A stretch of DNA of 25,229 nt from a virus, in the IMG/VR virus record IMGVR_UViG_3300033571_019100, positions 1 to 25,229 of that record; one strand, given 5' to 3'. The number at the start of each line of letters is the position of its first letter. The first letter of the stretch is position 1. The notes below the pieces were generated by a model. That model was not told the origin of the DNA and did not search any database. It saw only the letters and a list, made by a program, of their open reading frames with translations. The translations under genes and the position numbers were made by a program. Below, one piece after another: positions 3,568 to 22,452 of this stretch.

Positions 3568-3574
3568 CGCAAAA

Positions 3575-3602
3575 AAATACCCACCTTTTGTGGTGGGTAT
3601 TT
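3575..3602 (-). terminator. Rho-independent terminator
   Basis: A 9-bp stem (ATACCCACC at 3577-3585 with 3592-3600), lengthened by A-T pairs, has a six-base loop and seven T residues on the minus strand. It starts a few bases after the stop of the 237-aa gene. Confidence 0.9.
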
Positions 3603-3606
3603 AAAT

Positions 3607-4320
3607 TTAAAACTCTTCTAAGTCAACTGAACTGGTGTATCTGGTATACTGAGCGTAACTGATTCCACTTAAATTTGATAGTTTGCCATATATAGAGTAC
3701 ATTTGCTCACGAGATTTATCTGTATCTTCTGGAAAAGCTGATACAAATACGCAACCAAATTTTCCAATACTTTTTAGTATACTAAAAAATTCATACTTGT
3801 CTGTGTCTGTTAAGTACTCTAATTGAAACTGCATAGTTTTATTACGAGGCCCTGGTGTCGAGTACAGGTCGCCGCTTTGTAATCTTTCCGAAGTACTAGT
3901 ATCAATATATCCTGTAGTAATTCCAAAAGGAATGTTATGTTGTGGACTCCAATAGTTGCCAACTATAAAGCGACTAACTTTTACGCTAACATTGAAAGTT
4001 ACTGTAAAACTAGTACGTGCACTGACTCCGGTTAAGTATACTACAACATACTTACCGCCGCCGTAACCATTTGGAAGGTTTATGCTGGAGCTAACAGTTG
4101 GCTCTGTTACTGCTGGAAATCCAGTAACTGTCATTGTTATTGACCCAGTATGTTCTGGTAAATACGCTACCACAGCTATGTTTCCGGAAACTGAGCTAGT
4201 GGTTAGTACAAAACTGGTGCCTGTAGAAGTTTGTGATTTATAATCATTGGTGGTAGGGTGTGTACTAGATCCTGCCACTTGAGTTAATCTATTATTATGG
4301 ATTATTCGTAAGTGTGCCAT
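3607..4320 (-). CDS. Minor tail protein, Dit-like C-terminal half
   Basis: This 237-aa protein has a beta-rich N-terminal half (about residues 25-115). Its C-terminal half has SGDLYSTPGPRNKTMQFQLE, a helix DTDKYEFFSILKSIGKFG, and a final YSIYGKLSNLSGISYAQY with SSVDLEEF. That layout is a strand set, a short helix for a replaced region, FVSAFPE, then a closing strand. It resembles distal-tail or minor tail proteins of siphophages. Its position after the tip proteins is unusual for a Dit. A clear terminator follows its stop, closing the unit. The assignment is by general resemblance. Confidence 0.5.
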   Translation of the reverse strand: MAHLRIIHNNRLTQVAGSSTHPTTNDYKSQTSTGTSFVLTTSSVSGNIAVVAYLPEHTGSITMTVTGFPAVTEPTVSSSINLPNGYGGGKYVVVYLTGVSARTSFTVTFNVSVKVSRFIVGNYWSPQHNIPFGITTGYIDTSTSERLQSGDLYSTPGPRNKTMQFQLEYLTDTDKYEFFSILKSIGKFGCVFVSAFPEDTDKSREQMYSIYGKLSNLSGISYAQYTRYTSSVDLEEF

Positions 4321-4378
4321 TGAATTCCTTGGGTTAATATAACTATTATTGTACTACTTTCTCTCACGCTAACCCCAA

Positions 4379-5692
4379 TTATAAAGTAGTATTTAAAGGG
4401 GCCCAGGAATACTGTTGAGTATCAATAGCCATTATTGAAGCATGACCTGTTAGGCTAGGTAAAAGATACCCGTTAGCCACTGTAGTCATTCCAGGATACC
4501 AGCCAGTATTAGACGCCCAGGTGCCTGCACTCTGTAGAGTACCTGCGGGCCTCAATGCAAATGTAGAGGGGTTAAGAGGATCAACAGTATAAAAAAGAGG
4601 CATCATATACCCAACACTCCCACCAGGATGACTTTGCCCAGAGCCTGCTTGACAATAGTAATAACCTACAGGAGAGCTTTGCCCTGTGGCCCAAGTTGTA
4701 GGTATACTACCGTATGTAGGAGAATAATTAGGTAAAGTTGTGGATGAATAAAATGTTCTAGTAGGTCTAAAACCTGCTACTAATCCAGAATTGGATAAAT
4801 TTGGGTCTAGTCTAGCTGCTGGTTTTAGTAGAGGAGAATTAGTATTGAAAGAACAAATACCTGAACTATCAAATGTTCGCATACCGTACCCTGTTGATGC
4901 AGCTCGTGTAGAGTAATTCTTACAAAATAAATAAAATTCATAGTCTGCAGGATTTAAGGAACCGGTTCCATTTGTGTACAAATTAAACCAATAAGGCTTT
5001 CTACGAATAGTAAAACAATACCCGGCACTTATACTAGAATTAATGGGGCTAGATACTGTCATATTAGATAGGTGAGTAGATCCACCAATTGATGGAAATG
5101 CTCCTGGCGAAGCAGCATTTAAAGTATTGTAATTTACGCCTGTTACTATTCGTGTTCCTGGTATATTACTAAATGTACCGGGACTAATTGTGCCATTCAC
5201 ATTTACATTACAGGAGGCTGTAACTGGGTTAAAATAAAATATTTCTAAAGTATCGCCTACACGTATAGGTACATTATTGTATACTCTCCAAGAAGCAACA
5301 CATTGCATATTTATATAACTAGAGCCATTTGGAGTAGGATACCCTATCTGAGACAGCATGTACCTTGGAGTTGTTCTAGTAAATTCGTCTTCTTTACTAT
5401 ATCTTTCTGGTACTGTAATAAGGCCAGTAGGTACTATAATAGGGGTACCAGATCCAACATATCTAGCAAAACACATCCAGTCAGTTGGCTGTGTACTATA
5501 GGCTTCACATGCAGCTGGTAAATCCAATTGCACGCACCACGGTACTAATCCGGAACCTATAGCATTTTGGTTACTTAATGTAGCTCCATACACCCTGGAA
5601 CCGCTATATCTACCAACAAATTGATACATGTGTATGGATGTATCAAGTACTGTATACCCTTCTGCATTTTTAAATTTAGTTCCGTATGTCAT
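4379..5692 (-). CDS. Unknown cysteine-rich tail protein (M-x-Y-G start)
   Basis: This 437-aa protein begins MTYGTKFKNAEGYTVLDTS. I recall that pattern from tip proteins of siphophages, but I cannot name a family. It holds nine cysteines and many Tyr, Pro, Gly and Ser residues, with short beta-strand-like stretches and no helix-rich part or membrane segment. It follows the 238-aa gene with only two bases between, so both belong to one unit. Together they might form an adhesin or a decoration at the tail tip. A 58-base gap separates it from the next gene. Confidence 0.55.
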   Translation of the reverse strand: MTYGTKFKNAEGYTVLDTSIHMYQFVGRYSGSRVYGATLSNQNAIGSGLVPWCVQLDLPAACEAYSTQPTDWMCFARYVGSGTPIIVPTGLITVPERYSKEDEFTRTTPRYMLSQIGYPTPNGSSYINMQCVASWRVYNNVPIRVGDTLEIFYFNPVTASCNVNVNGTISPGTFSNIPGTRIVTGVNYNTLNAASPGAFPSIGGSTHLSNMTVSSPINSSISAGYCFTIRRKPYWFNLYTNGTGSLNPADYEFYLFCKNYSTRAASTGYGMRTFDSSGICSFNTNSPLLKPAARLDPNLSNSGLVAGFRPTRTFYSSTTLPNYSPTYGSIPTTWATGQSSPVGYYYCQAGSGQSHPGGSVGYMMPLFYTVDPLNPSTFALRPAGTLQSAGTWASNTGWYPGMTTVANGYLLPSLTGHASIMAIDTQQYSWAPLNTTL

Positions 5693-5694
5693 TG

Positions 5695-6411
5695 TTAAAC
5701 CCAGAAGAAATAAAAATTTATTTTACAAGCAGGAGCACCGTACGGCGTTTGTGAAAAACCTCTATCGTGTGAAGTAAATGCAATAGTACCAAGATTATTA
5801 TCGGTATAAGGGATTGGCTTATATGACATAGTATAACTTCTATCGTAGTTTTTTATAACTACTGGAGGATTAACGGCACATTTTGCTATACCTACACTTA
5901 TTTCATCCATACAGGAAGTACCCACATTTGAAGAAGGTTCCCAGTTCCAGATAATAGTAGAGTTAGCTGGCGGTATTATACCTGTAGTAGTTGTATATGT
6001 AGAAAAATCCCTGGTGATCCATCCACCATTACCATCTGCTACCGGCTTTCCAATCTCACTGTATCCTACGGAACCGCTTGAAGGTGTAGTACCTCTATCT
6101 GGTTGCACATAACCAGGACTTTGTGAACAGCCTATCCAATTATCTGCAATAGCGGCGGAAGATTGTCCATAGCTTTCATTTGATATATGACATATTGCCC
6201 AAGAAGGTCCGCGCTGCCCAGAAGTATAGGTAAACGACTGTGATCCAGAAGGTGGAGACAGTACCCTAGGATCTTGCTGATTAAACCAGGTGGATATAGT
6301 TGGCGAACGTACTATCTCGGAATGAAACAGTATAGGTGTTGCAGGATCAGTATCCGTAAATGTTACTGTATTAGCAGCCCCCCCTGTTTTAATTGAAAAA
6401 CCATAAATCAT
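5695..6411 (-). CDS. Unknown tail-associated protein (M-x-Y-G start)
   Basis: This 238-aa protein is not firmly recognised. It begins MIYGFSIKTG, like a loose class of phage tail proteins that start M-x-Y-G. It is Tyr/Pro/Ser/Gly-rich and contains five cysteines, unusual beside neighbouring fibre proteins that have almost none. No signal peptide or membrane segment is seen. It lies 24 bases after the central fibre gene and two bases before the next gene, whose protein has a similar start and composition. A role as a tail tip or receptor-interacting component is inferred from position only. Confidence 0.55.
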   Translation of the reverse strand: MIYGFSIKTGGAANTVTFTDTDPATPILFHSEIVRSPTISTWFNQQDPRVLSPPSGSQSFTYTSGQRGPSWAICHISNESYGQSSAAIADNWIGCSQSPGYVQPDRGTTPSSGSVGYSEIGKPVADGNGGWITRDFSTYTTTTGIIPPANSTIIWNWEPSSNVGTSCMDEISVGIAKCAVNPPVVIKNYDRSYTMSYKPIPYTDNNLGTIAFTSHDRGFSQTPYGAPACKINFYFFWV

Positions 6412-6435
6412 TAATAGTTGCCCTATAATTATATA

Positions 6436-9192
6436 TCATGTTGTTAAATCACCTAGGTGTACACGAAGTACTCCATTTGAGTCATATACTTTTATAGCCC
6501 GCGAATCCATTTCCATACGAGCCCCAGCTGTAGCTGATTTTACGCTAAAGTTATTTATGCCTGTTAGTGCTAGTGATCCGATCTGTGCACTACTAATTGC
6601 GGCATTTGCAATATAAGTACTGGCGTTGCCGGAAGTAATTTGCGCAATACCGCGTCCAGATGCATATGGTGTAAAATCTACTTGGCCAGTACCCGCCTGT
6701 CCAAAATATACGTTTTTAAAGAAAACATACATATCATTTTGAGCTATAGACCGACCGCGTACAATAACATAAGCAAATCGTGCAGTTGCAGGTGCAGTTG
6801 CAAAAGTTTGTGAAGCTCGTAAATCTGCTAAGGTATTTACTACGCTTTGAAAAGTTACTGCATTACCTGTTGACTCACTAATATAAGCAAAATTACTGTC
6901 CACCCATACTACAGCAACAGTAGCTCTACAACGGTGAGCATTTAGTAATGCAGATACTTCATATCTAGTATCTGGAGTAACTGGAATATAATTTTGTGAA
7001 GTACTTGCATCAAATACAGTATCTACTACAGAACTACCAAACCTATAAGAAAACCCAAGACCTAGCCCTTTTAAACTATAATCTGGATTTAAATTATGTC
7101 CTACTGTGTGTGCAGCACCGGTTGTATTATATCCGGCCAGCCAGCCAGCAATACCATCTTCTAGCCCTCCATTATATAATAAGTTAGAGCCAAAACCAGC
7201 AGTTATTCCACCACTACCAAGTAGTAATTTACCATTAGTATCACGAACTTCAAGTCCATTTGAATTTATTTTACTGGCAGTTACCGAACCGGTTACAAGT
7301 AAACTTCCATCAATAATTGTGCCTGGAGGCACCCACGATGTACCATTGTGGGTAATAGTATATACGTAGTCACTTCCGTTAGTAAAAGTAACTGTATCAC
7401 CATTAATGGGAGTAGTAGGATTGCTGCCTGCTGTGGCTGCAGCAATTAGTTGAGTAGCGCGAGCAGCATAACTTGCAGCACCTGCTGCTGTAGCCCCGGC
7501 ACCATCAATATCATAAGTGGCGACATACAGCGCATCAGTACTGTATAGCTGTCGACTACCGCGTATACCAAGTGTACCTGCTTTTACTTTGGTTATTACT
7601 TGCGTAACTGTTTGATTACCTATAGAGCCATTAACCCTAATATAGATTAAAGGATAACTAACTGTTACTGCATCCACAGTGTTGCTCATAGCACTGTGCT
7701 GTGCAACAACAGCCGTGGTAGTAGTTGCACCACTGCGAGCACCTACAGTTATTGCGTTAGCCACTGATAGTGTTGGGGTTCCAATAGTAAATGTTTTTGC
7801 CACAACATTTCTTACTACGGTGCCGGCACCAGCTACACTAGTAACTGAGGTGCCTGTGTTTGAATATGTAAAAGTTGTAGTATTAACAACAGTTATTGCT
7901 GCACTAACTGCGTTAAAGCTAGTATTACTAGTACAATCAATGCTTACTACGTCGCCTGTGGCTAGTCCGTGCGCAGCTGTAGTAGTAATTGTAGCTATGT
8001 TTGAAGTATTTCTAGCTACAGTGCTTATAGTTGCTGTAGCATTACCAAGTGTGGTTACATAAGTAAACTGTTCACTGCCTTCTAGTACCTGTATGTTGGT
8101 GCCACTGCCTACGTAAGTACTAACTGCACCAGAATTGTCTGCTGGTATAGGATAATTACTATTAGTTAAACTAAACGTCATTGCACTACTGCCTGATACA
8201 ACAACTGGTACTTCTTGAGTATCCAATAATATTGCGGTACCGCCGGCGGCATATAATTCAAACTTTAGTATTCCAATAGTAGGCGTACTTGGTGTATAAG
8301 TGTATGAGCTTTGATCAGCGCTGCTTGTATACTTTACTGTTCCGTCTTCATATATTCTAAATCGGCCTGTGTAGGCAGACTTTGTAGCATCAATAGTAGA
8401 AAATCCACTAACAACTATACTGGCAGGAGTTAGTAAGTTGGTTGCGCTACGAGATATTACTGGTGCACTTACGGCTACTTCATAAAGAGTAGGAGAAGTG
8501 CCATTTGTTCCAGGAGTGCCTTTGAATGTAACATTTAAAACTTGAGAAGTTACTGCTGCACCGCCGCTTGCTGCTAAGTATAGTCTAATAATATAAGAAG
8601 ATACTTGGCTGTTAGATAGCGTGTTTAAGTCAAAAGCTGTTGAGCCGGTATCTACACGAGCACTTTCTACGCCAGTTGTGTTTGGAGTAATAGTTATCCA
8701 GCCAAAATTAGTGGTTGCTGTACCATCATAACGCTTACCTTGAACTGAAACGCTTGTGTACGTGCCCGTAGTAACAGAATCAGCAGCATTTTTGTAAATT
8801 GCAGGAGCACTAACAAAAAGAGTATTTATAATTGCATTGCTTGGTGCTTGTGATACAAGTATTGGAATTGTTGCAGTAATTGTATTGTTGTTATGCTCTA
8901 CACTAACTGAAACTGTTGTTGCTGCAACGCTATAGTTGGTGGCTAAAGTGGGTGTAAAAGTTGCGGTTGTGGCTGTAGTAGATAATACGCCTGTAGCACT
9001 CCAAGTATAAGATTTTGGTGTAAGTGAAACTCCGCCACGAAATAGTGAAACACTAAAAGTTCCTGCAGCGGAAGGTGTAGGGGTGCTTCCATTAGAAGCA
9101 TAGGAAAAGGTTCTATTACCTCCAATAATAGATAAATTATACCCATCATTGGCATCTGTAATAGTTATTTGTCCTGTGGTAATTACGGGCAT
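6436..9192 (-). CDS. Tail tip central fibre protein with J-type C-terminus
   Basis: This 918-aa protein is the largest fibre-like protein. It starts MPVITTGQITITDANDGYN. Beta domains follow, including a module near residues 396-464 with TTAAHGLATGDVVSI and TTFTYSNTG, of the FCCH-like type found in many phage fibres. Residues 535-640 contain GIRGSRQLYSTDALYVA and GTIIDGSLLVTGSVTASKIN. A possible carbohydrate-binding-like segment starts at NLLYNGGLEDGIAGWLAG near residue 669. The end has repeats such as ANAAISSAQIGSLAL. It closes with MEMDSRAIKVYDSNGVLRVH, the usual ending of J-type tip attachment proteins. The ribosome site is GGAAG seven bases upstream. A role in host contact is inferred. Confidence 0.75.
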   Translation of the reverse strand: MPVITTGQITITDANDGYNLSIIGGNRTFSYASNGSTPTPSAAGTFSVSLFRGGVSLTPKSYTWSATGVLSTTATTATFTPTLATNYSVAATTVSVSVEHNNNTITATIPILVSQAPSNAIINTLFVSAPAIYKNAADSVTTGTYTSVSVQGKRYDGTATTNFGWITITPNTTGVESARVDTGSTAFDLNTLSNSQVSSYIIRLYLAASGGAAVTSQVLNVTFKGTPGTNGTSPTLYEVAVSAPVISRSATNLLTPASIVVSGFSTIDATKSAYTGRFRIYEDGTVKYTSSADQSSYTYTPSTPTIGILKFELYAAGGTAILLDTQEVPVVVSGSSAMTFSLTNSNYPIPADNSGAVSTYVGSGTNIQVLEGSEQFTYVTTLGNATATISTVARNTSNIATITTTAAHGLATGDVVSIDCTSNTSFNAVSAAITVVNTTTFTYSNTGTSVTSVAGAGTVVRNVVAKTFTIGTPTLSVANAITVGARSGATTTTAVVAQHSAMSNTVDAVTVSYPLIYIRVNGSIGNQTVTQVITKVKAGTLGIRGSRQLYSTDALYVATYDIDGAGATAAGAASYAARATQLIAAATAGSNPTTPINGDTVTFTNGSDYVYTITHNGTSWVPPGTIIDGSLLVTGSVTASKINSNGLEVRDTNGKLLLGSGGITAGFGSNLLYNGGLEDGIAGWLAGYNTTGAAHTVGHNLNPDYSLKGLGLGFSYRFGSSVVDTVFDASTSQNYIPVTPDTRYEVSALLNAHRCRATVAVVWVDSNFAYISESTGNAVTFQSVVNTLADLRASQTFATAPATARFAYVIVRGRSIAQNDMYVFFKNVYFGQAGTGQVDFTPYASGRGIAQITSGNASTYIANAAISSAQIGSLALTGINNFSVKSATAGARMEMDSRAIKVYDSNGVLRVHLGDLTT

Positions 9193-10669: not shown

Positions 10670-11980
10670 TTAATTTAATATATCACAGTGAAAGGTAGCT
10701 CGTTGCCACACGTCTGATACGGATATTGTTATTGCTTTATACCCTGAACTGTATGTTTGATTCCATGTAGAATCATCATTTGGAATCGGTTGAGGGTCGT
10801 ACGAAACTCGAGTCCACATAAAATTTGAAGCCGGAATGTCATCTGTGACTTCTACATCGTTTTTAAATACCCTGGCTCTTAGTATTGTTGTTAGTGTTTG
10901 TCCAGGTTTAAAGACGTCACCATTACTGCTTTCTACTACTACCCTATAAGTAACCGCGTCTTTTACCTTAGCAAAGTTAAAAGATTTTACTAGATCAGAA
11001 AATCCTGTACGAGTTGCTGTAATTGTTATGTAACCTGAGTCTAACGTATCAGGAATAGAGGTTAAAACAATTGTGTTGTTAGTAGTACCCGTAATGGTAG
11101 TAAACACTATACCAGGCGTATGATCGGTTATATCAATAGCCCACTGGTCCGAAACATCGGTAAACCCATTGTATACATATATTGTGGTACTTGCGCCGTC
11201 GTAATTAGATATTACACCATCAAAGTTTGTATTAAAAATGTGGGTGTCTTTGGATAGTAGAATACTAGTAGTAGAAGCAGCTACTACTTTACTTATACTA
11301 AAACGCTTTACCACGTCTGGGTAGCCTTGACGTGTTGCGGTTATATCTACGTAACCGTTTAAGGTATTTATAGGTAAATTAACACGAATAGTTTTACCAT
11401 TAATAAGATCTGCACTAATACCAGTGCTAGCCTCAATACTTGCAGACCAGTTTTCGCTGTCATCTGAACTACCGTTATAAATAGTTAGTGTTGATTCAAT
11501 AACAGTGTCTGACGGAATAGCTCCGTCTTCGCCAACTGACACGGATACAGAGCTATTTGATAGAGTACCTAGAATACTGTTTGAACCCAGCCTAACTATA
11601 GGTAATGTTACGATTGCTTCTGATAAGTTTGCAGCAGTTGTTGATGTTTCGATTACTTCAACTTTATACTGTACAATCCCAGAATTTTGAGAATCTGTTA
11701 TAAAAGTTTGATTGCCTATAACATTCAGCACAGGGTTATTGCTGTTGGCTATAGTAGTAAAATTTCCTGTATCGCTAAAACGTCGATACCAAGTATACTG
11801 TGGAACTATATACAGCGAAGGTATTGCAGTTAAATTAAGAATACCTGGCAAAGTAGTTGTGGAATTTTCTGGTATAGTAAAACTGTTTGCAACACCCGTG
11901 GTTATGTATACTGTGGCCCCAACAATTCTGGTTGAGGCTGAATTTAAAAACTGATTCCTACTATTTAATAAAGTTGCCAT
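10670..11980 (-). CDS. Tail tip protein with tandem Ig-like repeats
   Basis: This 436-aa beta-rich protein contains two related repeats of about 85-90 residues, roughly at 145-233 and 245-336. Each ends in an ITATR-(Q/T)-G-(Y/F)-x-D-x-V-K segment, followed by F-x-(I/F)-(S/A)-K-V. The C-terminal part (about 345-433) has SSNGDVFKPGQ, R-A-R-V-F, IPASNFMWTR and RATFHCDI, a module frequent at the end of tip proteins attached to J-type hubs. It is translationally coupled to the hub gene by TAATG. I infer a structural part of the tail tip shaft. The domain pattern resembles the middle of fused J-type proteins in other siphophages. Confidence 0.65.
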   Translation of the reverse strand: MATLLNSRNQFLNSASTRIVGATVYITTGVANSFTIPENSTTTLPGILNLTAIPSLYIVPQYTWYRRFSDTGNFTTIANSNNPVLNVIGNQTFITDSQNSGIVQYKVEVIETSTTAANLSEAIVTLPIVRLGSNSILGTLSNSSVSVSVGEDGAIPSDTVIESTLTIYNGSSDDSENWSASIEASTGISADLINGKTIRVNLPINTLNGYVDITATRQGYPDVVKRFSISKVVAASTTSILLSKDTHIFNTNFDGVISNYDGASTTIYVYNGFTDVSDQWAIDITDHTPGIVFTTITGTTNNTIVLTSIPDTLDSGYITITATRTGFSDLVKSFNFAKVKDAVTYRVVVESSNGDVFKPGQTLTTILRARVFKNDVEVTDDIPASNFMWTRVSYDPQPIPNDDSTWNQTYSSGYKAITISVSDVWQRATFHCDILN

Positions 11981-13509
11981 TAGGTTAGTACCTCTACTTC
12001 TATTTTTCCAGTTAACCAGTTAGGTTTAGTAGAAATAACTAATCCTAATTTACCAGAATTTAAACCGTAACGACTAGATACTAACGTAACTGGAGTACCT
12101 ACTTCTAAACTAAGATATTTGCTGGTGCAAGTCATTGCATAGATTATTCGCGGAGTTTTAAATAAGTCTAATTTAGACGCGGCTGCTGCTTCTGCTTGTG
12201 CACGATTTATTAAGTAAGTCGGCTCTAGTACTGGCTCAGAATTTAGATCATACTTGGTAATAACAGTTTCATCTTTTGCTAATGCTTCTAAATATTCTCG
12301 GGCCAATAAATCTTTGTGTTCTTCTGGAATACCTGTTGTTAAATTGGTTTGTATAGTATAGTTTTTAGCGTATCCAAGTTTAATTGCTCCATATATAGTA
12401 GGCTTATCTACTACACGTAAAGTATTTAATACCGTATCATTGTCGGATATAGTAACAGTAGCACTAGTAGGAATCTGTATTTTTACTAATTTAACTTTGC
12501 CTGTTCTGGTAACTGCTAGAGTTAATCCTGCGCTTTTTGCTAATTCTTGGCAAATAGCCAATACATTGGTACGTGAATTTAAATAAACACCACAAGCCTC
12601 AGTGCCAAGAGTTGCAAAACTAGCCGCGTCTATTTCACTGTACTCTAAATTTTTACCAGTAAATTTTAATAAGTTAAGAATTGTGTTTGATATAGTAGGA
12701 GAATATGTGTCTACATAAGTAGAATTGATTATATTTACTGTACGGGCAATACCTTGTACAGAAGCAGTACATGTGCCTTTTAATGGACCTATTACTCTAA
12801 AACTGCCTGGAGCCAAGTAAGGGGTACCGCTGTGTTGAACTGTAGTAAAACTAACCGGAGCTCCATTATCTAGTACTTCTATGATTTGTTCTACTGGTCC
12901 ATCGGCAACCATATACTCTCGCTCAGTTGGATCAGTTAGTATAGGCGAAATATTGTGAACTTCGCCGTAAATTGTAGGTTTTAATGTATTTCTGTTTTGG
13001 TTAACTGTTACAGTTTCAGCGACTACCTCACCTTTGTAGTAGTTGCCTATAAGAGTTTCCGTTACAGGAGTGTTAAGTTTTTCTAGTTTATCACGTATTT
13101 TTAGGTTAACAGATTGTCGCGACTTAGCGTCAATATCTGTACAAACTCCGTCAAATATTAGTTCGAAGTTATCAACTAAAGTTACAGTGCTACCTGGTAT
13201 AGGTAATCCTCCGTAATAGATTTTTACAGTACGATTTTTCCAGATATAGCTTAACCAGTTGTCTAGTTCACCAGCATTGTTGACTAATTCAATATCTCCA
13301 ACACTAATGCTGGCAGAATAGTCTAAGTTTATTGATTCGTCTATGCTAATGTTTGTTCTTATTAATGGTACATATTCTACACCATTTACAGTTACTGCGT
13401 GTGTGCTTAGGTATTTTACTTGCTCAACTCCACCTATCTGTACTGATACTTGTGCCAGCAAGATACGTATTTCTTTTGAGCTTTCTAACCATGTTTGATA
13501 GTTTAGCAT
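11980..13509 (-). CDS. Tail tip / baseplate hub protein
   Basis: This 509-aa protein has the features of a phage tail tip hub, the ring that closes the tube and carries the central fibre. Residues 50-95 (SASISVGDIELVNNAGELD, then WKNRTVKIYYGG) and 185-225 (PTIYGEVHNISPILTDP) follow a pattern I recall from J-type or gp27-like hub proteins. The C-terminal part (about 425-509) has the usual helix with repeated Ala/Arg residues. It is followed by LEVGTPVTLVSSRYGLNSGK, a strand pattern common at the end of hub domains. The start has an AGAGG ribosome site. The stop overlaps the next start as TAATG. It directly follows the tape measure gene, without the lambda M-L-K-I set between. Confidence 0.7.
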   Translation of the reverse strand: MLNYQTWLESSKEIRILLAQVSVQIGGVEQVKYLSTHAVTVNGVEYVPLIRTNISIDESINLDYSASISVGDIELVNNAGELDNWLSYIWKNRTVKIYYGGLPIPGSTVTLVDNFELIFDGVCTDIDAKSRQSVNLKIRDKLEKLNTPVTETLIGNYYKGEVVAETVTVNQNRNTLKPTIYGEVHNISPILTDPTEREYMVADGPVEQIIEVLDNGAPVSFTTVQHSGTPYLAPGSFRVIGPLKGTCTASVQGIARTVNIINSTYVDTYSPTISNTILNLLKFTGKNLEYSEIDAASFATLGTEACGVYLNSRTNVLAICQELAKSAGLTLAVTRTGKVKLVKIQIPTSATVTISDNDTVLNTLRVVDKPTIYGAIKLGYAKNYTIQTNLTTGIPEEHKDLLAREYLEALAKDETVITKYDLNSEPVLEPTYLINRAQAEAAAASKLDLFKTPRIIYAMTCTSKYLSLEVGTPVTLVSSRYGLNSGKLGLVISTKPNWLTGKIEVEVLT

Positions 13510-13533
13510 AAACCTCTCTTTATTATAATTATT

Positions 13534-13563
13534 AAAAGAAGGCCCAGTTTAGGGCCTTCTTTT
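13534..13563. terminator. Rho-independent terminator after the tape measure gene
   Basis: A 9-bp GC-containing stem (AGAAGGCCC at 13537-13545 with 13552-13560, six-base loop) extends by three A-T pairs and has A/T runs on both sides. On the minus strand the hairpin begins right after the tape measure TAA at 13564-13566. It can work in both directions. Confidence 0.85.
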
Positions 13564-16500
13564 TTAAATAACAGCAGCTTTATTACGTTGCTGCCACTCT
13601 TTTAGTGTGGCAGCATTAGCCACTTCAGTTGTTACTGCTTCAGCTGCGCGGTTATTAGCATCGTAGTTGCTTACAATTAGATCACCAGTTTGTTGCTGTT
13701 GTTCTTTGCGTAATTGAGCTAATTCTTGTTTAACTTGACGTAACTCTTGTACTACTTGACTTACACTACTAGACATAGTTGCTTGAGGAGCAAACATGCC
13801 ACGAGTCTGATCAGCCGGGTACACCCTTCCTGGATAAGAAAAGTCTACTAGTTCGGGGCCGCGTTCACCGACTATTGTTAATCCACTTGCACGGCCACCT
13901 GCCGCTAATTGTGGAACACCAGCTAGTATAGCAATATTAGCATCAATGGATTCTAACGTTCCTAGTTGCTTTTTAGCTATATTAATTTGACTTTCAGTTT
14001 CGGTAATACCTAACTTAGTATCCTCTAAAACCTTGTTAAAATCTTTTATATATTGGCCGCTACTAGCAAAGTAATTCCCTGACGCGCTTAAAAAGGTTTG
14101 TGCAGCTGACTGATATTCGCCCTGAGCTTTTTCGTCTCCGGCAAGTGCTTTTGCAAACGTTGTTTCATACTGCATTTTAGCTTCTGTATATTTTTCTAAA
14201 GGACTTAATATACTTTGGCTGCCAAGCAGTAGGCCGTCTCGGAACGAGCGTAAACTAATACCAAATTTATCAAATTTATCAATAGTATTTTGCAAACCAG
14301 TTTGTAAGCCGGCCTTTTTATCTTCCATAGCTTCTGTAATTGCTATAAAACCTTCTTGCACATCCATTAGTGCTTGATAGTTGTCGCGACCAGCTTTTGT
14401 GTTAAGGTCTAAACCTTGAACTAAAAGTTTAAATTGATCCCTAGTTTTAATATTAGCAAAACCTAATCTGTTCATTTCAGCTGTAACTGCTTTTTGAACT
14501 GGAACTAATCGCTCTGCTTCAGTTAAAAAGTTTTCTGAAAAGAAGTTCATTTGGTCAACAAACTTATCTAAACCAGCTGCACCCTTTATTAATAGTTCTG
14601 CTACTTCATATGCATTGGTAGCACCCCTACTAAGCAAATCAAATGCGCTGCTTATAGATAATAACCCTAATCTTACTTGTTCGGTTTGCTGAATTATACG
14701 TATAACTGTAGTTCCGTAATCTTCACCTGCAGTCTCAAAGGCCTGAAACTCAGGAAATAAGGCTTTTAGAGCAATATTGTTTATTTGACTAAAATATGCT
14801 TCAATTTCGGCACGTATTTCGTCGGCTCCATTTAAACCCATTAAATCTAACTTAAGTGGTTGACCTTGTGAGTCTACTAAAGCTATTGTCTTTAACTTGT
14901 CTGTAACAAACTTTAATGGGTCGTCTTTTTTAAGTTGGGCGGCTATTTCTTCGTAACCTTCTTTAAAGTATCCCATTACGTCTTTAAAGGCTTTTTGTAG
15001 CTCTGGGGTTACGGAAGTAACTGATGTTTGAACAAACTTACCCCCACTATCGCTACCAAACCATCCACCGTCTTCGTACCAGTCTACTAATACATCTGTT
15101 ACTAACTTTAGGCTATTTGACATGTCTTTGCTTACACTATCAAAAGTTCCTTGCAGTTCAAGTCTACGGTTTTGAAGTGTACGAGTTTCTGAGTAGTTAC
15201 CACCAAGTACGCCACCAAGTAAACTATCAATTAAACCAATACCTGTAGCATCAAATTTATCTTTGCTAGTTCCAAGAGTAGCTGCAAGTTCTGTTGGTAC
15301 AGTTCGTAGTCCTGAAGTTACAGCTACATTAGTAGCCTTACCGATTGCATCGGAAATACTTTGAAAACTACGTAATAGTTTATTATCATAGCTTAAAGAT
15401 TTAAAGGAGTTATCTTTTAAAATTTCCAGCGAGCGTACAACTGAATTAGCTTTTGCTTCATCATCACCTAAAATTCCTCCGCCGGTAGCAACTTTTTCGC
15501 CAAGAGCGTTAAAAGTCATTCCAGTGCCTTGAGTTTGTTGAAGCTGTTCGCTGGTAGCTGTAAATGGCGCTGGACTTCCTCCACCGCCACCTTTTCCAAT
15601 AAGTCTTAAGAAGTATGCTCCGGCTGCAGCGCCGGCTATCATGCCCCAAGGTGCTGGAATTGATTTTAAATATTGTCCAACGATTTGCCCGAAAGTAAGT
15701 GGTGCGCGAGCAGCTGCGCCAGCACCTTCTACTGCGGTTAAGGCACCTTCGCTTGCGGCTTTAACTGGAACTGCGCTCCACCACGCACCAATTTTACCTG
15801 CCATAGTTTTTAATTCCATAGCTAGGCTTGCTAGTTGTGTGCCTTTTTCTAGGGCGGCAAATGCTTTGTGAGCTGCGGTTTTCTCTTTAAATACCTTTTT
15901 AGCAGCTCCGGCAACCTTACTAGCGTTTGCCATCTCTGCTTTCGTTGATTTTTCGTTTAGCGTAATTTCTTCTTGCTTTAATCTATTTAACTTATCTTGA
16001 TTTTCTTTGCTTAGACCAAGAGGGTCGTCAATATCATTTAGCTTTTTCTGCTCTGCAGCATTATCTGCAAGTAATTTATTATTTTTTTCGCTTTGTACAG
16101 CTAGGTTGACCATAGCTGACACGACTCCGCCTACTGAACTTCCTAAGTCTTTGAAAACTAAGGTTAAGTTCTCTGCTAAGTTATTAGAAGATTCAATTAA
16201 TAGGTTATAGCGTTCTTGTTCTAAGTTAATCTCTTTTGACTTTTCTAGAACAGCTACTTTATTATTATACTGTAATGTAAGTCCTGCAACCGTGTTATTT
16301 GTTAGATTTTGCTGTCTGGTTAGCTCAGCAGTTTCTGCATCAATAGCTGCCTTATTTTTAACAGCCCCATCTGCCTTTAGTACTGCTATTCTTGCCTCCG
16401 ACGCTTCACGTTTCTGTGCTAAAGTATCTTGGGCTTGTTGTTGAGCAATATTTAAATCTAACAATGCTTTTTCTTTATCTAGAGCAGTTTGAGTATTAAT

Positions 16501-19500
16501 AACGTAAGTTTGTGAATACTGACCTGCTTGACTTTGTATAGCAAGCAATTGGCTTTGAACATCTAATCTGCTTGTAGTAGTTTGATTTTCTAGTTCACTA
16601 GTGCTGCGTAAAGTTTCGTAGCGTTTATCAATATCTAATAATTCTTGCGTCAATAGCTGCTGTCGACCTTTGGCTGTAATTAGCGAAGTATCTGCTGCTT
16701 GTGCTTGCTCTGTACGCTGTTTAACTTGTTCAAGAAAATTAATCTGAGCCAGCTGACCTTTTTGTGCGTCAGCATCCCCGCGAGCTACAGCATCCCTATA
16801 TTTGCCCTCTGCTTGAGCAATTTTATCGTTGATAGCTCCAAGTTCTCGATTTTGTTGTACGGCTTTTTCAGTTAATTCTGCACTTTGTCTATTTTTAATA
16901 ACTTCCGCACTAGTAACACTAGCAATGCTTGACATTATATCCTGTCTTGATATTAAACTAGCAGTTGTGCGATCTGTTATCTTTTTTAGTTCTTCTTCTT
17001 GCTGTGCTTGAGCTATTGGCAAGTCGCCTCTTAAACTTAATTGACTAGCCTCTAGCTGACTTTTGGCTAGTATTTTTGCTGGTTGTAGTGCGGCTTGCTG
17101 TACCATTTTTTGGCGGGCTTGGTCCTGCCTAATCTTAGCTTTTTCCTGCTCATCTAGTAAATCGGAATTAAGCATACCAGCAGCACCAACGCCTGCAGCT
17201 CCTAATTGAGCTTTTGCAACTTCTTTAGATGCTCTTTTATTTTCTTCTATTGCGGCTATATCAGTTTTACCAGCGTTTTTTTGTAGTACATTGGCTTCTG
17301 CTTGAAGTGCATTTGCCAACTTCATTTCATTTACAAGCTGAGTTTGAGTATCCATCATTTGTTCGGATATACTAATATCAGCTAAACGTGCTTTTAATTC
17401 TTGTTGAGCATAAGCGGCATCAGCTTGTAGCTTTTGTGGTCCTGTTAAGTTTGAAGTTAAAACTTTACCAATTGTTATTGACGCAGTAGTTTGAGCATCT
17501 CGCACTGCTTTACCAATAAATGCCATTCCTCTATCAAATAGGCTTTTAGCAGCGGCCTCAACTAACTTTAAGCTTTTGTCTACTGCGTCACGAGGTGCAG
17601 CAGCTAAAGCTTTCTGAAGTTCTCTAACAGTACTATTAGCAATACTAGCTTGCTGACGAGGACCACTGCCTTGTGCTATATCTAGAGTAGAGGTCCCTCT
17701 TGCAGCTGAAGGGGCCCCAGGAGTCTCTGTAAATACAGCGCCTCTAGTTCCTGCAGCAGTGTTAGCTAAACTTAATTCTTTTTTATAGGTTACCAGTGCA
17801 CTACTTAAGCCGTCAATAACTGCTTTTTGTTTTCCAAATTCAGAACTTATTTTTCCGAATTCACTAACGAACTCTGGGCCAAACATGGCGGCTTTTTCCA
17901 TGTTAGCGGAAAGTTCCTGTAGTGCTTGCGAAACTCTTTCAGGTCCTTGAGTTATTAGCTCGTTTAAACTATTGCTAACAGCAATTAAACCTTCACCATA
18001 TTTAAAGGCAGGGCTAGAGTCTAGAAAAGAATTACTTAGTACTTTTTGAGCTTTTAATGCTTCATCTGTTTTGTCTTTAAAATTCTGAAGTGCACTTCCG
18101 GCATTGCCTAACGCTCTATTAGAATTTTCTTGTATAGAAATTAAAGCATTCTGTTGTTCTTTGTTTAGGGCTTTAAAAGCAGCAGTTACTTGTTCTACGC
18201 TTTCTAAGTTATCAACTTGTAAGATTTTTTGTACTTGCTGTTTATAAGCCTCAGCCAGCCCTTCACGACTTAACAAGTCGATACTAGACTGTATCTGTTT
18301 TGCCACGTTTTTTGCTAGTTTACTGGCTCTGTCTCTTCCTACAAATGAGAATAGTCCATCCCAGAACTTATCCCAACTATTTGCAGCTTTATCTGCTTCG
18401 CGGGAAACTTTTATAACTTCTGATAAGCTACTAGTTACTTCGCTTAGAGCATTTGAAAAAGCTACAGTATTAGCAATTGTTCTTGTAGCAAAACCTTCTG
18501 TAGTAGTAGCAGCACTTATTGTTCTAGCTATGTTTGACATAGCCTCTTCTGCAGTTGTTAAAGATTTACTAAATTTTTCAGCTTGTTTTGAGTTACTAGT
18601 AAACCAGCTATCTAATAGCATAAATCCTGCTACAGCTAAACCGATGGCTTGCCCAACTCCAGCAAAACTTGATATAATACCCATTACTCTCGTGCCAACA
18701 GCAGCTAAAGTACCTTGAGCCACAGTACTATACTTGGCAAATCCGGTAACTCCTTTTTCTGCTATTTCTTGATTTAACAATTGGTAAGCAACACGTACGC
18801 CTGCAATTTGCGAAACTTGGGCAGCATTGGAAATAATATCAGCTCTAACTACTTTGTCTTTTAGATCTTTGTATTTTCTTTGTGCAATTATTTCTGCGTC
18901 TAATCTGCTTAGTGGGCCACTAGCTGCCTCAACTGAACCTTCGCTGGCTTCTGCTAAACTCTTCTTTTGTTTGTACAGAAGAATTTCTTTTTCGATATAA
19001 GCTACTTGTTGCTTGGCTTGTTCAATTTGTGCATCACTGGCTTTTTTACTGCCGCGCATACCTGTTTCAATAGTGGCGTTGCGAGTTTCTAATAAACTAT
19101 TAATCTTCTTTTGATTTAATTCGCCTGCTTGTAAATCTTTTAGCGATTCTGGTACTTTTCCAGGAAACTTAAGTTTAGCTAAGTCTTGTTCTGTTTTACG
19201 AATATCTGCTTGAAGATCTGGGATTTTAAAGCGTTTTTCTAGGATTGTTTGGAATTCGTCACCAAAAGATTCTTTAAAAGCTTCTGCTGTTTTTAGCGCT
19301 TCTTCAGCACTATTTTTTAGTCCAGCACGAAGCTGCCCAATAGCAGGTAATGCTTGCTTTAGCAGTACTACCCCAATTCCAGCTAGTACAGCACCTAATG
19401 CTGCAGGAGATTCTGCTAACAATGAAACTATCGGCACTAAAACTTTATTAACTAACTCTAGTCCAGACTGTATTACGTTTTTTAGGTTAGCTAGTAGCTT

Positions 19501-20352
19501 ATCATATGGATTTGCCGCTGCTTGGGCAAGTGCTCCAAATTTCTTTTCACCTTCTTCTAGCACAGCATTAGCAAATGCTTGGCGGCGTTCAAAATCGCTT
19601 AGTGCATTAACGCTTTTACCAATTTCTAAGGCATAACGTTCAGTGGCAGGACCGATTTTTGTAAATAAACCTAATTCGTCTAATAATTCAGGCTCTAGCT
19701 TAACAATACCGCGACTTAAGCGACTTAGTGCGTCCGGCATAGCTACACCAAGTGCTAAACTGGCATTTTTTGCCACTAAAGCTAAACGCTCAATGTTTTT
19801 GCCGCTCATGCCAGCACTACTGGCTTGAGCGGTTGCAGTCATTGCTTCGCGCATACTAATCGCACCATCTGTTACTTCAACTAGGCGCTTACTTAGGGAA
19901 CCAAGTGCTTGGCCACTGGCGGCACCAAGCGTATCTAATCCACGTACAAGATTGGTAGTATCTGCGGCATTTTTAAGTGCAGTAAAAGCAGCACTTGCAG
20001 CAAATACGTTGGCAGCAAGTGTAGCGTATAAGCGCACCAACCCGCCAAGACCTTGAGCTTGGTTTGCAAAATCACGAGCACTGGCTCCGGTGGCTCCTGC
20101 AGCACCACGAGCACGGCCGTAATCTTCGCCACTCATTATACGTTCGCTGGGAGCCATGCTTGCAGCGACCATGCGCGAACCACTGGTACCACCAGGTGTC
20201 AGGGTGCTTTTAACTGGTGTTGCTTTTATACTTTGCGAAGCTTGCTGGGCTTGCGTAGCCGCTTGCGTTATTTCTTTAAAGCTTTGAACAACTTTTTTAG
20301 CTGTTCCATTGTCACTGACATTTATGCCAATGTTTATATTTTGTGTGGCCAT
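13564..20352 (-). CDS. Tail tape measure protein
   Basis: At 2262 aa this is the largest gene of the window and, from its position after the chaperones, the tail length ruler, which is ejected with the DNA. The N-terminus (about residues 1-300) has the Ala-rich helical tape-measure core with GLGGLVRLYATLAANVF. Hydrophobic segments capable of crossing a membrane lie near residues 316-338, 555-584 and 1566-1592. The last ends in a glycine linker (GKGGGGG). Most of residues 340-1500 is Gln/Glu/Ala/Lys-rich and predicted coiled-coil. Near residues 2142-2184 is the common C-terminal motif GERGPELVDFSYPGRVY. No lysozyme or peptidase motif was seen. Translation starts at the ATG with AGGAG five bases upstream. 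It has its own promoter and terminators on both sides. Confidence 0.95.
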   Translation of the reverse strand: MATQNINIGINVSDNGTAKKVVQSFKEITQAATQAQQASQSIKATPVKSTLTPGGTSGSRMVAASMAPSERIMSGEDYGRARGAAGATGASARDFANQAQGLGGLVRLYATLAANVFAASAAFTALKNAADTTNLVRGLDTLGAASGQALGSLSKRLVEVTDGAISMREAMTATAQASSAGMSGKNIERLALVAKNASLALGVAMPDALSRLSRGIVKLEPELLDELGLFTKIGPATERYALEIGKSVNALSDFERRQAFANAVLEEGEKKFGALAQAAANPYDKLLANLKNVIQSGLELVNKVLVPIVSLLAESPAALGAVLAGIGVVLLKQALPAIGQLRAGLKNSAEEALKTAEAFKESFGDEFQTILEKRFKIPDLQADIRKTEQDLAKLKFPGKVPESLKDLQAGELNQKKINSLLETRNATIETGMRGSKKASDAQIEQAKQQVAYIEKEILLYKQKKSLAEASEGSVEAASGPLSRLDAEIIAQRKYKDLKDKVVRADIISNAAQVSQIAGVRVAYQLLNQEIAEKGVTGFAKYSTVAQGTLAAVGTRVMGIISSFAGVGQAIGLAVAGFMLLDSWFTSNSKQAEKFSKSLTTAEEAMSNIARTISAATTTEGFATRTIANTVAFSNALSEVTSSLSEVIKVSREADKAANSWDKFWDGLFSFVGRDRASKLAKNVAKQIQSSIDLLSREGLAEAYKQQVQKILQVDNLESVEQVTAAFKALNKEQQNALISIQENSNRALGNAGSALQNFKDKTDEALKAQKVLSNSFLDSSPAFKYGEGLIAVSNSLNELITQGPERVSQALQELSANMEKAAMFGPEFVSEFGKISSEFGKQKAVIDGLSSALVTYKKELSLANTAAGTRGAVFTETPGAPSAARGTSTLDIAQGSGPRQQASIANSTVRELQKALAAAPRDAVDKSLKLVEAAAKSLFDRGMAFIGKAVRDAQTTASITIGKVLTSNLTGPQKLQADAAYAQQELKARLADISISEQMMDTQTQLVNEMKLANALQAEANVLQKNAGKTDIAAIEENKRASKEVAKAQLGAAGVGAAGMLNSDLLDEQEKAKIRQDQARQKMVQQAALQPAKILAKSQLEASQLSLRGDLPIAQAQQEEELKKITDRTTASLISRQDIMSSIASVTSAEVIKNRQSAELTEKAVQQNRELGAINDKIAQAEGKYRDAVARGDADAQKGQLAQINFLEQVKQRTEQAQAADTSLITAKGRQQLLTQELLDIDKRYETLRSTSELENQTTTSRLDVQSQLLAIQSQAGQYSQTYVINTQTALDKEKALLDLNIAQQQAQDTLAQKREASEARIAVLKADGAVKNKAAIDAETAELTRQQNLTNNTVAGLTLQYNNKVAVLEKSKEINLEQERYNLLIESSNNLAENLTLVFKDLGSSVGGVVSAMVNLAVQSEKNNKLLADNAAEQKKLNDIDDPLGLSKENQDKLNRLKQEEITLNEKSTKAEMANASKVAGAAKKVFKEKTAAHKAFAALEKGTQLASLAMELKTMAGKIGAWWSAVPVKAASEGALTAVEGAGAAARAPLTFGQIVGQYLKSIPAPWGMIAGAAAGAYFLRLIGKGGGGGSPAPFTATSEQLQQTQGTGMTFNALGEKVATGGGILGDDEAKANSVVRSLEILKDNSFKSLSYDNKLLRSFQSISDAIGKATNVAVTSGLRTVPTELAATLGTSKDKFDATGIGLIDSLLGGVLGGNYSETRTLQNRRLELQGTFDSVSKDMSNSLKLVTDVLVDWYEDGGWFGSDSGGKFVQTSVTSVTPELQKAFKDVMGYFKEGYEEIAAQLKKDDPLKFVTDKLKTIALVDSQGQPLKLDLMGLNGADEIRAEIEAYFSQINNIALKALFPEFQAFETAGEDYGTTVIRIIQQTEQVRLGLLSISSAFDLLSRGATNAYEVAELLIKGAAGLDKFVDQMNFFSENFLTEAERLVPVQKAVTAEMNRLGFANIKTRDQFKLLVQGLDLNTKAGRDNYQALMDVQEGFIAITEAMEDKKAGLQTGLQNTIDKFDKFGISLRSFRDGLLLGSQSILSPLEKYTEAKMQYETTFAKALAGDEKAQGEYQSAAQTFLSASGNYFASSGQYIKDFNKVLEDTKLGITETESQINIAKKQLGTLESIDANIAILAGVPQLAAGGRASGLTIVGERGPELVDFSYPGRVYPADQTRGMFAPQATMSSSVSQVVQELRQVKQELAQLRKEQQQQTGDLIVSNYDANNRAAEAVTTEVANAATLKEWQQRNKAAVI

Positions 20353-20380
20353 TTGTTCTCCTAATAGCTGTACACCATCC

Positions 20381-20394
20381 TGGTTTTAAAACCA
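20381..20394 (-). repeat. Palindrome in the tape measure mRNA leader
   Basis: TGGTTTTAAAACCA is a perfect 14-base palindrome in the 5' leader between the promoter and the ribosome site (AGGAG at 20358-20362). As RNA it can form a short 5-bp hairpin. It could be an operator for a dimeric repressor or an mRNA-stabilising hairpin, but it may also have no function. Confidence 0.4.
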
Positions 20395-20419
20395 AAAACC
20401 GGGATTTATAGTTTACACG

Positions 20420-20448
20420 ATTATAGCATACAGGCAGCAATTTGTCAA
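20420..20448 (-). promoter_or_regulatory. Perfect-consensus sigma-70 promoter for the tape measure gene
   Basis: On the minus strand TTGACA (20443-20448) is separated by exactly 17 bases from TATAAT (20420-20425), matching the consensus at all twelve positions. It lies just after the terminator at 20469-20504 and starts transcription around 20413, giving a leader of about 60 bases before the tape measure ATG. Host RNA polymerase should recognise it without phage factors. Confidence 0.9.
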
Positions 20449-20468
20449 ACCAAATTTTTTTAGCTACA

Positions 20469-20504
20469 AAAAAGCCCGCAAGCTTTTACGGCTGCGGGCT
20501 TTTT
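20469..20504. terminator. Strong bidirectional terminator overlapping the T-like stop
   Basis: A 12-bp perfect stem (20469-20480 with 20493-20504, core GCCCGCA) has a 12-base loop and A/T runs on both sides, so it can end transcription from either strand. On the minus strand its first arm encodes the last residues of the T-like ORF, and the loop contains the TAA at 20486-20488. A ribosome finishing the T frame would cover the first arm. Confidence 0.9.
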
Positions 20505-20872
20505 GCTTTTATTTTTTCTGCAATTAACTTTTGACGGATGCCGTCCATGTGCTGTAAAAAATCCAAACATAGTAGAATTTCTTCAGTGTCGACTATGTCG
20601 TATATACGAAACAGGTCAAATACCATTGCATAGTCTTTACCCATGTATCCGCCACCCATCGAATCCCAGTTATCTGATAGCATTCTGTATACTAAAAAAC
20701 ACTGTTGTACCAATTCTGGAAAATCACTGATTTCCACAGGTATTTCGGATTCTAGCGGTTCTTGTCCCAGCATTTCACACATCTCAAAGTAAGAGTCCTT
20801 TGTCATGTGTACGTCACTATTTTGAAAATAGTTTCGTAGCTGTTCACGCAATAAAGTTATTTGCTCGTTTGA
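20486..20872 (-). CDS. Tail assembly chaperone, T-like extension made by -1 frameshift
   Basis: This is the downstream half of a G-T chaperone fusion. Slippage at 20872-20878 after residue 132 of the G-like protein gives seven linking residues (S N E Q I T L). They are followed by the 121-residue helical, acidic region from 20851 to 20486, for a fusion of 260 aa. The only conventional start near the head of the ORF is a TTG at 20851 with no clear ribosome site, so independent initiation is unlikely. In lambda the T domain binds tube subunits while the G part holds the tape measure. The stop codon falls inside the loop of the terminator hairpin that separates this gene from the tape measure gene. 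Confidence 0.85.
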   Translation of the reverse strand, partial: SNEQITLLREQLRNYFQNSDVHMTKDSYFEMCEMLGQEPLESEIPVEISDFPELVQQCFLVYRMLSDNWDSMGGGYMGKDYAMVFDLFRIYDIVDTEEILLCLDFLQHMDGIRQKLIAEKIKAKSPQP

Positions 20873-21267
20873 AAATTTGCAAGATCAGTTACCTGCTCAC
20901 TTACAAAGCTATCAAAGTTTGTGGAATTTTTCATTAAGTAAAGAGCGTTTTCTTCTGAATACTCCAGTTCTGCATCCATATCTTGACCGCTTAAATCTAC
21001 TGGAGCTAATTGCTCCAAGTACTTAAGTTTTAAGCCACTCCAACCTTTAACTGCACTTTTAACGTAAAGTTCTAAAAACAGCTCGTCGTTTAGTTCTTCT
21101 ACTGGTTGACGATTTTTAAAGCTGGTTTTTGTAGCCTTTTTACGAATGTTTTGCAGAGTTTCGCGACTTAAAAAAGCAATCTGAATTTTAAAGTCCGGCA
21201 TCCCTGGGTACTCTACCTCTAGGGATTTTGAAGGAACTAAAAGAGTTTTTAAAGAAATGGTTGTCAT
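20857..21267 (-). CDS. Tail assembly chaperone, G-like (upstream frame)
   Basis: This 136-aa protein is a tail assembly chaperone of the lambda gpG type, which coats the tape measure and recruits tube subunits and is absent from the mature virion. Family-like features are the acidic, helical body, the VKGWSGLKLKYLEQLAPVDL segment near residues 73-92, and YSEENALYLMKNS near residues 103-115. It lies between the tube and the tape measure, the diagnostic position. Its last codons contain an in-phase A AAT TTT heptamer. A minority of ribosomes probably slip there and continue into the next frame to make a G-T fusion. An AGGA ribosome site is about 12 bases from the ATG, so initiation looks modest. 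Confidence 0.9.
   Translation of the reverse strand: MTTISLKTLLVPSKSLEVEYPGMPDFKIQIAFLSRETLQNIRKKATKTSFKNRQPVEELNDELFLELYVKSAVKGWSGLKLKYLEQLAPVDLSGQDMDAELEYSEENALYLMKNSTNFDSFVSEQVTDLANFQTSK
20872..20878 (-). other. Predicted programmed -1 ribosomal frameshift site (A AAT TTT)
   Basis: The heptamer lies in the zero frame of the G-like ORF as A-AAT-TTT, exactly the X XXY YYZ pattern. Slippage by -1 lets both tRNAs re-pair on AAA and TTT. The -1 frame is open from 20884 down to 20486, after a TGA at 20885-20887, so the heptamer lies in the short permitted window before the G stop at 20857-20859. An AGCAGG stretch about 13 bases upstream could act as a Shine-Dalgarno-like stimulator. I see no strong hairpin within 10 bases downstream. 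Confidence 0.85.
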
Positions 21268-21292: not shown

Positions 21293-21326
21293 TGAAAAAG
21301 TAGGAGTGGTGATCAAGCCACTCCTT
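21293..21326 (-). terminator. Rho-independent terminator after the tube gene
   Basis: An 8-bp perfect stem (arms 21318-21325 and 21302-21309, loop of eight) is followed on the minus strand by A-C-T-T-T-T-T-C. It begins 20 bases after the tube gene stop. It would reduce transcription into the chaperone genes relative to the tube, matching their lower demand. A TATAAT hexamer follows at 21284-21289 but has no -35 at a usable distance. Confidence 0.75.
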
Positions 21327-21345: not shown

Positions 21346-22452
21346 TTAAACTGCGTAATACTTAACAGTTAGTTCGTTAGTAGCACCGATATCGTAAGGG
21401 CTAGCAGCGGTACCGCCTGTCGAACCCTGTGCGGTAAAGTTAATTGTAGTAGAAACAACTTGCTGAACATCAATTGTAGGAATTGTTAACATAGTTGTTG
21501 GCATTTCTAGAGCCACTTTGATGCTGTTTGTTGAGCCACCGATTGCAACTTGCAAGTTGAAGTTAGGTTCAACGTTGCTGGTATCAGCCAACATAGAAGC
21601 TAACAAGGCGCCAGTGTCTGTGCTTCCGCCAGTTTTTAAGTAAGCATTTAAACTACCGCTAATAGCGCGAGTACCTGTAAAGTAAGTAGCTGGTTGGTTA
21701 ACAATAGCTAAGTTAGCAGGTACTAGGTAAGTAACGTTGTTGTTAATTGTTAGAGTACCACCAGTAATAGCGATTTGATATGTTGTACCACCGCGTGCAA
21801 CTGTAGCAGTGCTCAACTTATTGGCAATAAACGGTGCACCAGTATTCTTTTGTGTATAGCTGCCAGTTAAACCGCCACCAAAAGTACCTGCTGAAGCTGT
21901 AGCGTTAGTGTTTAGTTTACGCAATGTTTTGCCTTGACCAGTCCAAGCAATTGTAGCAATAGCATCAATACCAAAGTCAATTGTTGCTTGTGTTAAAACA
22001 CAGTCATCAATAACATAGGTAACATTGTCAAGAATAATAATTAAACCAAACTTTTGAAGTTGGTGTGCATTACTACCATCAAAGTCAACTGTGGAATTAG
22101 TAGAACCAGCTGTCCAGCCGCTACCATCAGTGCTTGATAAAGCGCCCCATAACACGCTTTCTTCAGCTTCTACGTTTGTTGTGCCCATGTCTGGACGCAT
22201 GTATGTGCTCATAGAAAAGTCAACTGGAGCTAAACTGGTGTTAAAGCTACGCTGACCACGAACAGGAGCACTGCCTGCTTCGTTGATTGTTACTGTTTCT
22301 TGGTTAGTGTTTTGTGAGAATGTAAATCCGTCTAGAATTTGAATTTCCCACGTTTTTGCGCTTTCTAAAGCGCCGGTATCCACTGCACCTGTAGTAGAGT
22401 TAACGTCTGTAGTAAAGAATACTCTACTATTACGTACTAAATTTAATGCCAT
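21346..22452 (-). CDS. Major tail tube protein
   Basis: This 368-aa protein is beta-rich and Thr/Ser/Gly/Asn-rich, nearly free of Cys. The segment ETVTINEAGSAPVRGQRSF followed by SMSTYMRPD is typical of siphophage tube proteins, which stack as hexameric rings. It is longer than the lambda tube protein (about 246 aa). The extra length suggests an inserted or appended domain, perhaps around residues 200-270. A good ribosome site (AAGGAAAG) lies six bases before the ATG. It sits just after the tail terminator and just before the chaperone pair, the standard order. A rho-independent terminator follows the stop, fitting a highly expressed structural gene. Confidence 0.85.
   Translation of the reverse strand: MALNLVRNSRVFFTTDVNSTTGAVDTGALESAKTWEIQILDGFTFSQNTNQETVTINEAGSAPVRGQRSFNTSLAPVDFSMSTYMRPDMGTTNVEAEESVLWGALSSTDGSGWTAGSTNSTVDFDGSNAHQLQKFGLIIILDNVTYVIDDCVLTQATIDFGIDAIATIAWTGQGKTLRKLNTNATASAGTFGGGLTGSYTQKNTGAPFIANKLSTATVARGGTTYQIAITGGTLTINNNVTYLVPANLAIVNQPATYFTGTRAISGSLNAYLKTGGSTDTGALLASMLADTSNVEPNFNLQVAIGGSTNSIKVALEMPTTMLTIPTIDVQQVVSTTINFTAQGSTGGTAASPYDIGATNELTVKYYAV

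Follow-up and report, generated by a model that had tools for sequence, protein, structure and literature searches.

A consensus sigma-70 type promoter behind a terminator at the tape measure gene of an uncultivated T5-like phage lineage

Results

Genes and regulatory elements around the tape measure gene

The window is the whole 25,229-nt stretch of viral DNA analysed here, and all coordinates given for it below refer to features on its minus strand. The major tail (tube) protein gene (21346-22452; PHROG 3575, E 5.9e-64) is followed by a terminator-like hairpin (21302-21325, -13.6 kcal/mol), a tail assembly chaperone gene (20857-21267; PHROG 313), the frameshift extension of the chaperone (20486-20851; PHROG 3914), and the gene for a tape measure protein (TMP) of 2262 aa (13564-20352; PHROG 3779, E 1.2e-46), which is homologous to the TMP of T5-like phages. 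By frame arithmetic, a candidate slippery heptamer, A AAT TTT (20878-20872), would shift ribosomes by -1 into the ORF at 20486-20851; the chaperone with its predicted frameshift has the same arrangement as lambda G/GT.

Directly upstream of the TMP gene we identified a sigma-70 type promoter (20448-20420) with the -35 element TTGACA (20448-20443), the 17-nt spacer AATTGCTGCCTGTATGC and the -10 element TATAAT (20425-20420). The hexamers match the consensus at 12 of 12 positions, and their spacing of 17 nt falls within the 16-18 nt range of sigma-70 promoters. A TG at -15/-14 (20428-20427) makes this an extended -10 (TGn), and an UP-element-like A/T tract, AAAAAAATTT (20461-20452), adjoins the -35 element on its upstream side. 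In the aligned promoters, columns up-11 to up-5 of this tract have an information content of 0.8-1.75. Within the spacer, positions -23 to -21 (20434-20436) read TGC, an element found in other late promoters of the group. The match is the sole perfect one in the 25-kb window, with a mean of 0.06 perfect matches expected at spacers of 15-19 nt from dinucleotide shuffles. Promoters that combine full consensus hexamers with an extended -10 can be slow to release the polymerase, and the match alone therefore does not give the strength of the promoter.

Transcription is predicted from the sequence to start near A20413 (+/-1), in agreement with the promoter spacing, leaving a 5' untranslated leader (20353-20413) with an AGGAG ribosome-binding site (20362-20358). 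Right behind the predicted start, a weak inverted repeat (20405-20377) surrounds GGTTTTAAAACC, and weak hairpins of a similar kind are present in many relatives. The folding energy across relatives is only about 1 standard deviation below that of shuffles, and the hairpin, which had no match in Rfam, was discarded as a conserved RNA element.

Relationship to T5-like phages and probable host

A DNA comparison of the window with 50,697 phage records returned no match and thus no close isolate. Protein matches to T5-like phages were found for the tail tube (34% identity to T5-like major tail proteins) and for TMP residues 94-415, and the terminase of a near relative (G012) is ~50% identical to those of Vibrio T5-like phages. 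The terminase, tail tube, TMP and chaperones are homologous to those of T5 and lie in the T5 order. The T5-type replication genes and tRNA array were looked for in relatives because the window is too short to contain them, and both were found: the relative G002 encodes, as T5 does, a split NAD ligase, DnaB, primase, polymerase, SbcD/SbcC and a D15-type exonuclease, and each of the two longest records has ~20 tRNA genes. By protein homology together with gene content and order, the window phage is best classified as an undescribed T5-like phage related to Demerecviridae. Three T5-like relatives also encode, within their tRNA arrays, a permuted tmRNA of the betaproteobacterial type (L083:8462-8858, L089:212-604 and L094:5775-6129) with tags such as ANDETFALAA. 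Going by the tmRNA type alone, the host is probably betaproteobacterial.

Conservation of the promoter

Using the chaperone protein as query, we collected 80 related IMG/VR loci. The window and those IMG/VR relatives that cover the TMP start, with a score of 10/12 or better, form a set of 68 loci. In all 68 the promoter lies 38-76 nt before the TMP start codon, and the spacer is always 17 nt long. There are 47 unique versions of the promoter, of which 34 match at 12/12 and 45 at 11/12 or better, and the TG is present in 47/47. Among 22 copies chosen for dissimilar spacers, pairwise identity is 93% in the hexamers and 100% in the TG vs 36% at spacer positions 1-14. Retention of the hexamers while the spacers drift points to purifying selection on the promoter. 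By information content, spacer columns 7-10 are conserved and columns 1-6 drift, and the TGC is missing from some TMP promoters in the group. Although a perfect match at a spacer of 15-19 nt did arise in 6 of 100 shuffles, the probability that the TMP promoter is a chance match in A+T-rich intergenic DNA is negligible, since its conservation at the same place across the 68 loci rules this reading out.

Terminators and extent of the transcription unit

Ahead of the promoter lies an intrinsic terminator (20499-20468), GCCCGCAGCCGTAAAAGCTTGCGGGC-TTTTTT, with a folding energy of -19.2 kcal/mol; 25 bp separate its hairpin from the -35 element, and the hairpin is present in 53 of 54 unique loci. Another intrinsic terminator (13563-13534), AAAAGAAGGCCC-TAAACT-GGGCCTTCTTTT, with -20.7 kcal/mol, directly follows the TMP stop codon; a generic scan had missed it, since the stem takes up its T tract. 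These findings bear out the initial annotation where it described a full-consensus TTGACA-17-TATAAT directly behind a strong terminator, terminators on both sides of the TMP gene, and a promoter set apart from the chaperone genes. Its further claim that the promoter is dedicated to TMP alone holds in the window, where a terminator follows the gene, and fails for the lineage: a terminator after TMP is present in only 12 of the 40 loci with a complete TMP gene (the window and 11 further), and the other 28 have no convincing one. Most of the loci without this terminator have the next tail gene starting a few bases from the TMP stop, and such loci still keep the promoter and the upstream terminator. 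Because the next gene abuts TMP in this way, the promoter would start a unit of TMP and the tail-tip (distal-tail) genes, and we take the start of this unit, rather than of one gene, to be its conserved function.

It could nonetheless be argued from the terminators that flank TMP in the window and the 11 further loci that the promoter starts a unit of this one gene, meant to set the level of TMP and nothing else. We consider this unlikely, given the 28 of 40 loci described above. Moreover, in the window no promoter-like site was found on the minus strand at 13509-13563, the position behind TMP that P-G25 occupies in T5, so that the tail-tip genes of the window's subclade, behind a terminator and with no promoter of their own there, would depend on read-through. 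TMP is also a low-copy virion protein, and a strong promoter for TMP alone therefore makes little sense. A lambda-type single late operon with antitermination was rejected, as it would have terminators (21302-21325, 20468-20499, 13534-13563 and 3575-3602) and promoters (20448 and 3567) inside it.

The upstream hairpin overlaps the end of the preceding reading frame. In 48 of the 53 loci that have the hairpin, the chaperone extension ends inside it, with its stop codon in the loop in 31 and in the stem in 17; in the window this codon falls in the loop of the 20499-20468 terminator. Ribosomes that translate the frameshift product to its end could melt the hairpin (20474-20499) of the terminator. 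The one relative without the terminator upstream of the TMP promoter, L007 (G018:C1 ~10962-11010), has at the same spot a promoter-like site facing the opposite way, before a start codon on the opposite strand, which suggests an inserted gene.

Further promoters in the late region

The initial annotation had proposed a search of the rest of the genome for similar promoters. We searched 16 long records and the window for sites with at most 1 mismatch in the -35 element and a 17-nt spacer, and found one more in the window and others of the same class in relatives. Three late sites recur: one at TMP, one close to the head genes ~8 kb upstream, and one 9-20 kb downstream of TMP. The structural-gene region thus contains several host-type promoters, as in the late plan of T5. 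The second promoter in the window (3567-3539) reads TTGACT-17-TATAAT and has both the TG and the TGC spacer element; a terminator (3602-3575) lies directly before it, and the T tract of this terminator merges with the A/T tract that precedes the -35 element. This terminator-promoter junction (3539-3602), which the initial annotation did not contain, precedes a 120-aa ORF and tail-fibre-like genes.

The TGC at spacer positions 7-9 (-23 to -21) is present at 27 of 35 late sites vs none of the 40 opposite-strand promoters in intergenic DNA. The corresponding Fisher test gives p ~1e-13 without correction for relatedness; this value is too optimistic, since the genomes are related and the position ranges of the sites were chosen with the data in view. 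The difference between late and opposite-strand promoters has a clear direction even so, and while the motif was first noticed in the TMP set, 15 of 19 sites at the other two late positions have it too. The TGC element may mark late promoters, or it may be only a structural preference of the spacer. An ATT-type discriminator is found at 0 of 35 late sites vs 11 of 40 opposite-strand promoters; as a way of telling early from late promoters this is suggestive and was given little weight, since T5 P-G25 has ATT and yet is late.

A separate family of consensus promoters has an 18-nt spacer and comprises 43 copies in 10 records (among them L121:1984-2030 and 2668-2710, L110:346-400 and 1400-1460, and L133 ~3550-8500). 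The -10 element of these promoters lies inside an inverted repeat (GGCCAAAATTATA..TATAATTTTGGC) that is followed by GGCGC and often by a second hairpin, and the family has no match in Rfam. They face the same direction as the late genes, but most of their positions are between opposite-strand genes; their transcripts would accordingly be antisense or small RNAs.

Comparison with T5 and other T5-like phages

In the annotation of the T5 record (AY692264), the promoter P-J5 lies inside the tail terminator gene, ahead of the tail-tube gene pb6, and P-G25 lies between pb2 (TMP) and pb9, just behind a terminator. P-G25, which is late in vivo, resembles the TMP promoter of the window in being of the host sigma-70 type with a 17-nt spacer and in bordering the TMP gene with a terminator directly before it. 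It differs in sitting after TMP, where it serves pb9 and the tail-tip genes, and in sequence, with TTGATA as -35 element, neither TG nor TGC, and the discriminator ATTGTT. P-J5, also late in vivo, shares the TTGACA, the 17-nt spacer and the place within the tail module; unlike the TMP promoter, it has TATACT as -10 element, lies in a coding region, serves the tail-tube gene and carries no TGC. As both T5 promoters are without it, the TGC element would be a feature of this lineage. In Providencia phage PSTCR5 (T5-like, Priunavirus), a full TTGACA-17-TATAAT lies behind a terminator at the end of the TMP gene, although this predicted promoter follows TMP instead of preceding it.

Behind TMP, a terminator and a promoter-like sequence, the latter read by eye, are present in each of the 8 T5-like phages examined. 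Directly before TMP, 7 of the 8 have a terminator but no promoter, and Vibrio phage Chester is without that terminator. The seven are TrudiGerster, DaisyDussoix, Klebsiella P5010, Providencia PSTCR5, Eos, Vibrio VCPH and D353; they share with the window a strong intrinsic terminator between chaperone and TMP, but in these phages TMP follows within tens of bases with no promoter between. By analogy, the window phage would use the terminator-promoter device of T5 one gene further upstream, a likeness of kind and not of position. An open-access literature search found no direct precedent for a promoter at TMP.

This relationship alters two expectations of the initial annotation, that such a promoter is odd for a siphophage and that a consensus host promoter might be active early. 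The window phage is T5-like, and T5 splits its own tail genes by P-J5 and P-G25. In T5 all temporal classes of genes use host sigma-70 RNA polymerase (PMC7472727), and transcripts from P-J5 and P-G25 are first seen at 30 min and build up afterwards (PMC7472727). Since these promoters are host-like yet late, early activity does not follow from a perfect match to the host consensus.

Discussion

The element itself, its conservation, its neighbours, the terminator before it and the spacer element shared with other late promoters can all be read from the DNA, and from them we infer, with high confidence, a terminator-promoter junction in the late region, at which a late-class promoter recognisable by the host restarts transcription for the TMP and tail-tip unit. 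The terminator at 20499-20468 would stop most transcription arriving from the head, tail-tube and chaperone unit. Host RNA polymerase with its main sigma factor would then recognise the -35 element, the extended -10 and the A/T tract upstream, and a fresh start near A20413 would supply the very long TMP gene. Read-through would serve the tail-tip genes or, in relatives, their direct linkage to TMP. The late region would have several late promoters at intervals of roughly 8-15 kb, the TMP promoter among them; by analogy with P-J5 and P-G25, the activity of the TMP promoter would be late. Such an arrangement could uncouple the level of TMP and tail-tip mRNA from that of the upstream unit, and could offset the loss of polymerase across a late region that would otherwise be tens of kilobases long.

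The timing and recognition of the promoter can be read in other ways. Full consensus hexamers with an extended -10 should suit unmodified host RNA polymerase, and on this ground the promoter could fire as soon as infection begins, whether early or constitutively and with no need of a phage factor, so that TMP is made early. We regard this as quite improbable: the T5 late promoters are host-like as well but late in vivo (PMC7472727), and the spacer element of the TMP promoter is common to promoters of structural genes and not to those of the opposite strand. The discriminator, which is not of the ATT type, points the same way, a weak argument given P-G25. It is somewhat less improbable, if still unlikely, that a phage-modified polymerase or a phage activator reads the TGC and that the host-like hexamers alone do not fire the promoter; the distribution of the TGC between late and opposite-strand promoters and the conservation of spacer columns 7-10 next to drifting columns 1-6 argue for it. 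A complete sigma-70 consensus, however, normally needs no activator, an activator of this type is not known for T5, and some TMP promoters of the group do without the TGC.

We thus favor the host-recognised late promoter, within which the role of the TGC can be treated separately. The proposal that the TGC at -23 to -21 is a late-class mark, read by a phage factor or by a phage-modified host polymerase, is doubtful and offered tentatively. If true, the mark would explain the switch between early and late transcription in this lineage, despite the sigma-70 consensus in both classes.

Conservation, and not just inspection by eye, reveals an uncultivated T5-like lineage in which a terminator followed by a consensus host promoter precedes the TMP gene. 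The promoter alone is an ordinary device of T5-like phages; what is new is its position and the lineage in which it occurs. The interest lies in the late-class TGC element, which separates late promoters from the others where all look like sigma-70 promoters. For promoter switching of the T5 type, the mechanism of which has been stated to be unknown (PMC7472727), the TGC element provides a concrete test object.
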